From Chloroflexota bacterium (GTDB taxonomy: Bacteria; Chloroflexota; Limnocylindria; Limnocylindrales; CSP1-4), in NCBI GenBank assembly GCA_003171065.1, contig PMXQ01000047.1, positions 3,587-63,514 of the forward strand: a stretch of 59,928 bases of DNA, written 5' to 3'. Both the position numbers and the translations under genes were made by a program. The notes under the pieces are model-generated. The model did no database searches. It saw only the letters and a program-made list of their open reading frames with translations, and had not been told where the DNA came from. Shown piece by piece: positions 16,255-19,860 of the stretch; position 1 is the first letter of the stretch, and every line of letters begins with the position of its first letter.

Positions 16255-16320
16255 CCGCGCGAGCTGCCGCCGGTGTGGCCCGCGCCGTGGCAATCCGGCC
16301 CTCGTGATAGGCTTCCGGGC

Positions 16321-17649
16321 ATGAGATTCGGGGGATCGCTCACGCCCCTTCGCGGCCTTCTGTCGTCCCGCCCAGCAGTGATTGGACGATCGTTCGCGTT
16401 CGTTCGCCGCCTTTCGTCCCGCCGTCCCGCGGTCGTCGGGGCCGCGATCGCGGTCGCGGTCGCCATCGTCGGCAGCACCATCGCCGTCGCCGACATCTCG
16501 GCCGGCTCGGCGGCGCCGACTGCGATTCCCACCGCATATGCGACAGGCACGCCGACGCCCACGCCCCTGGCCTCGCTCGCGGCCTCTCCCACGGCCTCGC
16601 CCACGCCTTCAGGCTCGGCTGGGCCTTCCCCCTCGCCGTCGGGCTCGACCGCCCCAGCAGGCATGGTGGCGGCCACCACCGATGGTGTATGGCTCCCGGC
16701 GAGCGAGGCCGAGCTGGCCACCCGCAAGCCGATCGCCGTCATGATCGACGACCACTGGGATGCCAGGCCGCAATCGGGCCTGTCGATGGCGGACATCGTC
16801 TACCAGGGTCCGGCCGAGGGCGGCATTCCGCGCTACATGGCGCTCTTCCAGACTCAGGCCCCGCCGGCTATCGGACCGGTCCGCAGCGCCAGGCTCTACT
16901 TCGTCGCCTGGGCCGAGGAGTGGCGCGCCGGGTACGTGCACATGTGGGGCGCGCCGAACGCGATGAACCGTCTGGCACAGGACGCCGGCAAGTACATCTA
17001 CAACATCGACGGACTCCGCTACGGCGGGAAGAGCGGCTACATGTGGCGCACGTCGTTCCGAGCGGCACCCCACAACCTCTACACCTCGTACGCCAGGCTG
17101 GAAACGCTGACGAAGAAGCTAGGCGGCACGGCGCCCCTCACGACGTCCCCGTTCACCTTCGAGGACGCGCTCCCCGGCAGCGCCCGACTCGTCGGCGGCC
17201 AGATCGTGGTGCCGTACGCACAGAACGACGTCGTCTACAACTACGACTGGGAGACGAACACGTATCCGCGCACCGTGTCCAAGGAAGGCCCCGAGATCGA
17301 TGCCGCCACCGGCCAGCGCATCGCGCCCTCGAACGTCATCTTGCTCTTCATGACCGTGGGACTGGCCAACGACACTCCGGCCGAGCTGCATAAGCATCGC
17401 CTCGACGTGCAGTACGTCGGCCACGGCTCAGCGATGGTCTTCAACAACGGACTCGCCACGTCGGCGATCTGGACCAAGAAGAGCCAATATGCCACCACGG
17501 TCCTGACGTACGCGAGCGGTCCGAACAAGGGCCAGCCGGTTCCCATGGTCCGGGGCCAGATCTTCATCCAGGTCGTGCCGACGTACGTACCCGCGAGATG
17601 GACCGTGGGCAGCACCCCGGCGCCGGAGATCGGGACGCAAGGCAGCTAG
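16321..17649 (+). CDS. DUF3048 domain-containing protein (YerB-like)
   Basis: IAVMIDDHWDARPQSGLSMADIVYQGPAEGGIPRYMALFQ...IGPVRSARLYF. Confidence 0.85.
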   Translation: MRFGGSLTPLRGLLSSRPAVIGRSFAFVRRLSSRRPAVVGAAIAVAVAIVGSTIAVADISAGSAAPTAIPTAYATGTPTPTPLASLAASPTASPTPSGSAGPSPSPSGSTAPAGMVAATTDGVWLPASEAELATRKPIAVMIDDHWDARPQSGLSMADIVYQGPAEGGIPRYMALFQTQAPPAIGPVRSARLYFVAWAEEWRAGYVHMWGAPNAMNRLAQDAGKYIYNIDGLRYGGKSGYMWRTSFRAAPHNLYTSYARLETLTKKLGGTAPLTTSPFTFEDALPGSARLVGGQIVVPYAQNDVVYNYDWETNTYPRTVSKEGPEIDAATGQRIAPSNVILLFMTVGLANDTPAELHKHRLDVQYVGHGSAMVFNNGLATSAIWTKKSQYATTVLTYASGPNKGQPVPMVRGQIFIQVVPTYVPARWTVGSTPAPEIGTQGS

Positions 17650-17695
17650 TGCTTCTCCCGCTGTTTCAGCACGGCACAAGATGTAGTGTCGGGGT

Positions 17696-18035
17696 ATGGC
17701 TCGGCCAGGCTTTCCTCGATCGCTCCGCGATTTCCAGCCGACATTCGCTGACGAGGAAGCCCGTGCTCGCTACATCGCCGCCTGTCGCTGGCCCGACGGG
17801 TTTCGTTGCCCGAAGTGCGGACATGACCGCGTCTACGTCCTGACCGCCGCCCGATCGCGTCAGCCGACCACAGCTCCAGGCCTACCTCGACGAGTTCGTG
17901 TTCCGCCACAACCGCCGCGGCAACCCAAAGGCCGCATTTCAGACGCTCCCGGGCTCAGGCACGAACCGGAAGCCCGTGCCGCTGTCGGTCGTTCGCGGCG
18001 CGACGGACATGCCCACCTTTCCCCTGAGGAGCTGA
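17696..18035 (+). pseudogene. Internally deleted IS1595-family transposase
   Basis: N-terminus ...FADEEARARYIAACRWPDGFRCPKCGHDRVYVL (zinc ribbon) joined out of frame to C-terminus QLQAYLDEFVFRHNRRGNPKAAFQTLPG; the central catalytic region is missing. Confidence 0.85.
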
Positions 18036-18048
18036 ATGAGGGGTGGCT

Positions 18049-18089
18049 GGCGGGTCAGAGCCGCAGCTTTCCCGCGGTTCCGACCCGCC
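18049..18089. repeat. Imperfect hairpin GGCGGGTCAGAGCCGC-N9-GCGGTTCCGACCCGCC
   Basis: 14/16 complementary positions; lies between tnp remnant and sigma gene; no T-run follows. Confidence 0.7.
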
Positions 18090-18113
18090 TGCGTGAAATC
18101 GGCGTTCTCCGGG

Positions 18114-18140
18114 TGAACCTGTGGACTCGTCGTGCTCGTC
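18114..18140 (+). promoter_or_regulatory. Candidate ECF-type promoter TGAACC-N17-CGTC upstream of sigma gene
   Basis: TGAACC (18114-18119), 17-nt spacer, CGTC (18137-18140), 36 bp before the ATG; resembles AAC/CGTC ECF promoter pattern. Confidence 0.45.
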
Positions 18141-18175
18141 TGTAATAACGGGGAGATGTTCAGAAAGGCACGAGA

Positions 18176-18691
18176 ATGGTGGACCGGGATCTCGTCGTTC
18201 GAGCGCAGCTCGGTGATGCGGACGCTTTCGAGCTCGTCGTCCGCGCCTCGCTGGAGTCGTGCTACGCGACGTGCGTGAGCGTCCTCCACTCCCCGGACGA
18301 CGCGCGTGACGCCACACAGGAGGCACTCGTCGCTGCCTGGCGGAGACTGCCGTCTCTCCGAGATCCCGACCGTTTCGACGCCTGGCTTCAGACGATCGCC
18401 CGAAACACAAGCCGCGATCTCCTAAGGCGTCGCAGTCGACTGCGCGAAGTTCAGCTCGACGCCTCGACAGCCGAGCTCGAAGCGCCGACCGGGCCCGTGA
18501 ACGGTCTCATCACGATTGTCGACCGTCTGCCTGGGCCGGCCCGGCAGGTCGTAACCCGCCATTACGTCGACGACGAGCCGGTCGCCGGGATCGCCCGATC
18601 GCTCGGCGTCCCGGCCGGCACGGTGAAATCTCGGCTCTTCCATGCGCGGACCGCGCTCCGCGCCCTCATCGACAAGGAGCGAGCACGATGA
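18176..18691 (+). CDS. RNA polymerase sigma factor, ECF type
   Basis: Region 2: SPDDARDATQEALVAAWRRLPSLRDPDRFDAWLQTIARN; region 4: VTRHYVDDEPVAGIARSLGVPAGTVKSRLFHARTALR. Confidence 0.9.
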   Translation: MVDRDLVVRAQLGDADAFELVVRASLESCYATCVSVLHSPDDARDATQEALVAAWRRLPSLRDPDRFDAWLQTIARNTSRDLLRRRSRLREVQLDASTAELEAPTGPVNGLITIVDRLPGPARQVVTRHYVDDEPVAGIARSLGVPAGTVKSRLFHARTALRALIDKERAR

Positions 18692-19413
18692 AGGTGCAAG
18701 GCGTTTCTGAGCCGACGCTCGGTCGGCTCGAGTCGGACGAACTCGTCTACTCGATCATGGATGGCGTCCTCCGCACACCGCAGGAGCGCCGGCGAACGCC
18801 GGGGTTTGTCCGGACCGTCTACGTCGTCGCCGTCGGCGTCCTGCTTGTGGCGGGCGGGCTCATCGCGGTGCCGCGTCTCACGTCTTCCGGGACGACCGGC
18901 GGCAGCGCGCTCTCGACCTACCACGCCGACGGGCTGCGATTCGACTATCCCGCCGGCTGGACGTTGACGCAAAGCTCGACCGTCATCGGCGCCACGGGCG
19001 TCGTCGCGTTTGTGGGCACCGGGGAAGGGGCAGCGGAGTGTAATCCCGTCGCCATACCGACCGGCGGCGGGGAGCGGCTGTGCTCCCTGTTCAGCGCCAG
19101 TCTTGCCCCAGGCCAGATCGTCCTCGAGATCGCCGTCGACGACACAAAGCCGTGGCAGCCTACGAAGTGGCTGAACCCTCCTGATTCGACGCGCAGCATC
19201 ATCGTCGGCGGCCTCCCCGCGATCACCGGCCCGAGCGTCGTCGTGCCGCACCGAATCGGCGCGGATGTCGTCACGTGCTGGGTGCTCACGTCGCTTCAGG
19301 ACATGAACCGACACTACGTGTTGACCGCCGCGATCCGTGGCCCGAATCTGACAGGTCTACAAGCACAGGTCGACGCGTTGCTCGCCTCGGTCACGTTTGA
19401 TCCGCCGAACTAG
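18688..19413 (+). CDS. Single-pass membrane protein, candidate cognate partner/anti-sigma of the ECF factor
   Basis: ATGA overlap with sigma gene; about 45-aa N-terminal segment, one TM (VYVVAVGVLLVAGGLIAV), then extracytoplasmic domain. Confidence 0.6.
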   Translation: MKVQGVSEPTLGRLESDELVYSIMDGVLRTPQERRRTPGFVRTVYVVAVGVLLVAGGLIAVPRLTSSGTTGGSALSTYHADGLRFDYPAGWTLTQSSTVIGATGVVAFVGTGEGAAECNPVAIPTGGGERLCSLFSASLAPGQIVLEIAVDDTKPWQPTKWLNPPDSTRSIIVGGLPAITGPSVVVPHRIGADVVTCWVLTSLQDMNRHYVLTAAIRGPNLTGLQAQVDALLASVTFDPPN

Positions 19414-19860
19414 CGGCGCCGGGGCCTCCCCTGAGCGACTATTACCCATAGTGGTCTGCTGAGCCAACGGGAGAAGCACCAGGCAGCTAGTCGGAGCGAC
19501 TGGTCGGAGTAGGGAGCCCGGCGCAGAGCCCGGCCCGGGAGCGGCCTGGGAGCGGCTTGGGAGCGGCCACGGAGCACGGAGCGCGGATCCTAGCGGCGAG
19601 CTAGAACGCGGAACATCCGTACGATCGTTGTGGCCGGTGGGGCGCCGGGGATCGCCGGACAGCGATCGTGGGCGGAGTGCCTTCGGTTGGGCTGAAGCCG
19701 GACTGAGGCCAGATCATTCGCAGCTAAGCGGCAGATGATCGGGCGCGGCCATCATCCGGTAATGCAAGCCTCCGCCGCCAATCCGATTGACACGCGCCAG
19801 TTCGGCTTTCTATCCTACGCGCCGTCGGTCGGGGGTCGACTGGGGATAGAGGAGTTGCGG

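Follow-up and report, generated by a model that had tools for sequence, protein, structure and literature searches.

The 59,928-nucleotide stretch of Chloroflexota DNA analysed here (the window) contains a 1,833-bp element, at positions 17648-19480, which has a DUF3048 gene on its left and a large MalT/BTAD-type regulator gene on its right and carries an ECF sigma factor gene together with a coupled gene for a single-spanning membrane protein. We consider it very probable that this is a non-autonomous derivative of the IS1595 family, descended from a transporter insertion sequence (tIS) that already held the ECF operon, reduced by a 617-bp deletion and later inserted at the DUF3048 gene, where it resembles a mobile insertion cassette (MIC). 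The ancestor would have been of the transporter type, with a transposase and a passenger between 24-bp ends; the passenger, here the sigma/membrane-protein operon, would have stood on the right-hand side of the transposase gene. Internal deletion of the catalytic core of the transposase would have produced a cassette in which both ends were still good and the two cargo genes apparently intact. Once the host had diverged from the closest relative sampled, this cassette would have entered AGGCAGCT where the DUF3048 gene ends, with an 8-bp duplication and a restored stop codon as the result. To move in this form, it would need another element to supply the transposase.

The original prediction listed inverted ends, flanking repeats, a broken transposase, an ECF sigma gene and a coupled membrane protein, and all of these are present, within borders that we have corrected (Table 1).

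Table 1. The element, its cargo and its insertion site, in window coordinates.
Feature	Position	Strand	Evidence and remarks
DUF3048 gene	16273..17649	+	PF11258, 1.3e-42; insertion interrupts the stop codon (17647-17649), which the first two bases of the element complete again
Left target-site duplication AGGCAGCT	17640..17647	.	its final T opens the DUF3048 stop codon; empty site in G038
Left terminal inverted repeat AGTGCTTCTCCCGCTGTTTCAGCA	17648..17671	+	20/24 to right end
Transposase 5' part (N-terminus and truncated zinc ribbon)	17696..17853	+	PF12760, E 3.8e-9, 36.8 bits (cut-off 25.4)
Junction left by the internal deletion of 617 bp (DDE core lost, reading frame shifted)	17853..17857	.	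located against the intact G043 and G022 copies
Transposase 3' part (LQAYLDEFVFRHNRRGNPK... to stop)	17874..18035	+	frame differs from 5' part; 81% identical to G022 transposase residues 261-317
Candidate ECF-type promoter TGAAC-N18-CGTC	18114..18140	+	tentative; upstream of sigma gene
ECF sigma factor gene, 171 aa	18176..18691	+	PF04542, 1.2e-14; PF08281, 3.2e-12; TIGR02937 sigma70-ECF, 66.0 bits (cut-off 42.9)
Single-TM protein gene, 241 aa, PsbP/Mog1-like outer domain	18688..19413	+	presumed sigma partner; 4-bp (ATGA) overlap with sigma gene
Right terminal inverted repeat GGTGCTTCTCCCGTTGGCTCAGCA	19457..19480	-	20/24 to left end
Right target-site duplication AGGCAGCT	19481..19488	.	same 8-mer as left

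The inverted ends (AGTGCTTCTCCCG.../GGTGCTTCTCCCG...) are 24 bp each, and the register of the element was set from its relatives. In these the element starts two bases before TGCTT, which gives exact 8-bp duplications of the form A-N6-T in all four cases: ACGGCGCT in genome G043, AGAGTGCT in G022, ACGCATCT in G015 and AGACCTCT in G010. The same register applied to the window returns AGGCAGCT on both sides, bearing out the predicted 8-bp duplication. The border had previously been placed one base further right (GGCAGCTA), and it was this shift that made the left end appear to have lost 2 bp; no base is missing.

The uninserted site that had been proposed as a check was found in G038, the closest relative searched, whose DUF3048 orthologue is 89% identical at the protein level. 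At the orthologous DUF3048-BTAD locus G038 has a single copy of AGGCAGCT, within an empty site reading CGCAGGGCAGCTAGTCGG; the locus runs ...ATCGGGACGCAGGGCAGCTAGTCGG... and then into the same downstream regulator gene, while the window reads ...ATCGGGACGCAAGGCAGCT, the element, and AGGCAGCTAGTCGGAGCG... at the same point. The insertion therefore took place after the host and G038 had separated. The DUF3048 gene also adjoins the regulator gene in G043 and G040, where the element is likewise absent. Insertion across the DUF3048 stop codon with restoration of TAG, as predicted, is seen in the sequence, except that the codon is made up of T from the target and AG from the start of the element, and not of TA and G; the DUF3048 protein is unchanged. 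RNA families and tRNAs were searched for at the insertion site and none were found. Between the element and the regulator gene, at 19531-19574, there are imperfect 11-bp tandem repeats (GGGAGCGGCCT).

The domains and coordinates of the two cargo genes place both of them inside the ends, as originally described. The sigma protein consists of regions 2 and 4 only and matches the ECF superfamily model. Its neighbour has a short N-terminus, one transmembrane helix and an outer domain. An AlphaFold model of this protein has a mean pLDDT of 66, the disordered N-terminus being modelled less well than most of the outer domain, and in Foldseek the outer domain falls nearest to PsbP proteins (E 2.4e-4, with modest TM-scores). 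A search of PDB sequences with a profile HMM of the protein returned nothing. In the ECF/anti-sigma paradigm a membrane protein holds the sigma factor until a signal arrives, and then releases it. We presume that the membrane protein here binds and inhibits the sigma factor in this way, as the coupling of the genes and the topology of the protein suggest; on sensing some signal with its PsbP-like outer domain it would let the sigma factor go, and transcription from the sigma factor's own promoter and of further genes would follow. The cargo is probably a self-contained envelope-signalling unit and works as a membrane-gated regulator. It seems doubtful to us that the membrane protein is instead an unrelated envelope passenger of lipoprotein type, with the sigma gene acting alone. 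Such a reading would accommodate the lack of the zinc anti-sigma motif HxxxCxxC (residues 1-42 contain no His or Cys), the lack of a match to the anti-sigma families of Pfam and NCBIfam, the low confidence with which the N-terminal 42 residues are modelled, and a PsbP-like lipoprotein gene in G075 that adjoins an IS end with no sigma gene beside it. It does not sit well with the ATGA overlap, with the single helix following a short cytoplasmic N-terminus, or with the same sigma/membrane-protein pairing at many chromosomal loci of the genus.

Those chromosomal pairs, in which many sigma genes are followed by such membrane proteins, often with the same 4-bp overlap, resemble the cargo in gene order, overlap, single helix and PsbP-like domain (for example G000:C114, L103), but, unlike the cargo, are not enclosed by IS ends of this type. 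They are also diverged from it: the chromosomal relatives in the genus are 29-38% identical to the membrane protein, and sigma homologues in the family reach 46-49%. Neither the class nor the GTDB contigs yielded a close homologue of the pair, the GTDB scan giving only one distant match. The chromosomal pairs mostly have a GGAACGAAT-type motif upstream, whereas the element's copy does not. The candidate promoter in front of the cargo has the same spacing as the motif GGAACGAAT-N17/18-CG(T/C)C, which precedes 11 of 18 homologous sigma loci, and the loose pattern that it matches has a chance density of 0.021 per 150 nt. As that pattern was picked after the site had been seen, a conserved promoter for the cargo is only suggestive. 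Upstream of the chromosomal ECF sigma genes of the genus (L081-L107) we observed a strongly conserved motif, GGAACGAATC-N~16-CGCC/CGTC, likely to be an autoregulatory promoter.

The transposase relic retains the zinc ribbon and the C-terminal tail of an IS1595-family enzyme. Its 5' part is 68% identical to residues 1-56 of the G022 transposase. The 617 bp absent relative to the intact copies contained the DDE core and are not a multiple of 3, so that the remainder is frameshifted; the predicted loss of the middle of the gene holds, but the two pieces are not joined in one frame. The IS1595 origin also proved correct, since PF12760 scores above its cut-off and the relatives that share these ends have DDE transposases matching PF12762. 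The zinc ribbon, the ends shared with intact members and the 8-bp duplication all place the element in the family; with the PF12762 domain deleted from this copy, it is a derivative of IS1595 and not an autonomous member.

In the host's family, complete elements that have the same ends and the exact duplications given above, and that each encode an intact transposase and a further gene, include a 1386-bp element with a small ORF (G043), a 1894-bp element with a DUF4240 passenger (G022), a 1645-bp element with a lipoprotein passenger (G015) and a 2083-bp IS1595-type element with a RhuM/Fic-domain passenger (G010:C14, L130:2466-4548). Another IS1595-type element, of 1900 bp, has other ends, perfect over 24 bp, and the duplication TTGCAGCA (G072:C44, L126:5704-7603); beside its transposase lies a nucleotidyltransferase-like protein with an AadA_C domain (PF13427, 4.8e-9). 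Transposase-only or deleted forms occur in G003, G056, G080 and G071. A 480-bp cassette in G038 (C12, L041:1873-2352) has no transposase, contains a small membrane-protein ORF and is flanked by an 8-bp duplication matching at 7 of 8 positions. Relics of it are 94-97% identical in G049 (C73, L040 463-698), where BLAST reports no shared flanks, and an end piece in G036 (C14, L110 2979-3059) is 94% identical. Two copies that are each cut by a contig end, G037:C30 (L037:1468-2814) and G054:C16 (L115:2999-3585), share DNA about 90% identical over the end of the transposase and a lipoprotein gene; one passenger therefore travels with one IS in two species. This shared passenger and the relics of the G038 cassette offer the strongest indication that the lineage's passengers and its transposase-less cassettes move.

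Two loci have a single IS end. At G075:C73 (L042:1453-2364) the end lies beside the PsbP-like lipoprotein gene mentioned above; no second end was found and the locus was not counted as an element with paired ends. The G075 lipoprotein is distantly related to the membrane protein of the window, and no sigma gene is adjacent. At G037:C64 (L156:2998-6890) an end is followed by a lipoprotein gene and then by another ECF sigma/membrane-protein pair; a second end was looked for there and not found, and the arrangement may be a coincidence. The search for relatives in which the ends bracket sigma and membrane cargo found no relative carrying that pair, neither in the family, nor in the class, nor in the GTDB contigs. 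The idea that the element spreads a signalling module is accordingly not borne out: there is one copy, no relative has the pair between its ends, and homologues elsewhere are chromosomal and diverged.

The host assembly is a draft of 3.02 Mb in 151 contigs, 88% complete, with the window on contig C121. Searches of it with PF12760, with PF12762 (which had no match) and with the G022 protein turned up no intact transposase of this lineage, and there are no further copies of the ends or of the cargo element. Other pieces of transposase are limited to contig C53, with a weak zinc-ribbon match, and contig C58, with a deleted element. The element on C58 (11282-11737; L114:2999-3454) is 456 bp long and of IS1595 type; its ends differ (...TCAGGT), and it is flanked by the exact 8-bp duplication ACGGCAAG. 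Intact candidate transposases exist in sister species, in G043, G037 and G022. An intact IS1595 transposase on contig C50 of G038 was ruled out as the cognate helper by its different ends. It belongs to another IS1595 subgroup, in a 2760-bp element (L155:2079-4838) with perfect ends CGGGGTTGTATACTTGACACAAGG, the duplication GACATGTC and a membrane-protein passenger. Mobilisation of the element in trans is no more than plausible, and present-day mobility is unsupported, because no intact transposase of the lineage is found in the 88%-complete host assembly. With candidate helper transposases in sister species and none found in the host, the copy in the window may be stranded.

The single copy, the missing helper and the failure to find a second element with sigma/membrane-protein cargo would also fit a different history, in which an intact IS or tIS inserted at the DUF3048 gene and then, in place, lost part of its transposase, gained the operon, or both, so that the operon never moved as cargo. 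We regard this as distinctly unlikely. The target duplications are identical at all 8 positions, which suggests that the insertion is fairly recent; related elements of the lineage hold passengers in the same position, between transposase and end; and the G038 cassette is a transposase-less form with ORF cargo that transposes or did so.

Among 13,579 pairs of identical 8-mers lying 300-4000 bp apart in the window, the pair flanking the element has the best inverted ends, with a runner-up at 18/24, so the score of 20/24 taken alone is not overwhelming evidence; beyond this score, the empty site and the related elements settle the insertion. That an ordinary chromosomal sigma operon beside an IS relic has come by chance to be framed by an imperfect inverted repeat and an 8-bp repeat, as the 18/24 pair with an identical 8-mer elsewhere in the window might suggest, has next to no probability, since it is refuted by the G038 empty site, and the same end sequence occurs on intact IS1595 elements of relatives, each with its own 8-bp duplication, and is confined to the host's family, at up to one mismatch, in a 400-genome sample of the phylum.

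A transposase-dead derivative of a passenger-carrying element, as we read the window copy, can be compared with two known systems. Transporter insertion sequences of the IS1595 family include tISCpe8 and MTnSag1, and passenger-bearing IS1595 elements were thus already known (PMC5704250 and references there); the term tIS appears in a passage of PMC3129680 that cites Siguier et al. 2009. The element shares with these the transposase lineage, inverted ends of about 24-25 bp, the target duplication and a passenger between the ends. It differs in that its transposase has been destroyed by internal deletion and in that its cargo is a two-gene ECF regulator module and not a resistance gene. Its passenger genes are unrelated to transposition, but a functional transposase of its own has been lost to the 617-bp deletion and frameshift, and with a broken transposase the element does not strictly qualify as a tIS. 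The second system is that of mobile insertion cassettes such as MIC231 of Bacillus cereus, an IS231 derivative for which mobilisation in trans by IS231A is on record, and the qnrD mic element (PMC3913671). Here too passenger genes are bracketed by IS ends and a target duplication with no working transposase, features by which such cassettes are described (PMC3913671, PMC3129680). Unlike MIC231, the element has ends of IS1595 type and retains a large transposase relic. The element most likely works like a MIC derived from a tIS, with putative mobilisation in trans.

Elements that carry passengers and have a dead transposase are hence a known kind, and it is the ECF sigma/membrane-protein cargo that is unusual; in the open-licence literature we found no paper on ECF sigma factors as passengers of insertion sequences. 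It is conceivable, as a tentative extension, that small envelope genes and regulators (lipoproteins, membrane proteins, the ECF module) are carried quite generally by the IS1595 lineage in the host family, with transposase-less versions moving them in trans and so re-siting extracytoplasmic regulators.

The usual view of insertion sequences is that they move themselves or resistance genes. The clean empty site, the intact relatives and the shorter transposase-less cassette in a sister species make mobilisation in trans directly testable with an existing transposase gene. If our reading is right, regulators would have a simple way of jumping between loci and species in a cassette that holds a whole envelope-sensing sigma operon and possibly its promoter as well.
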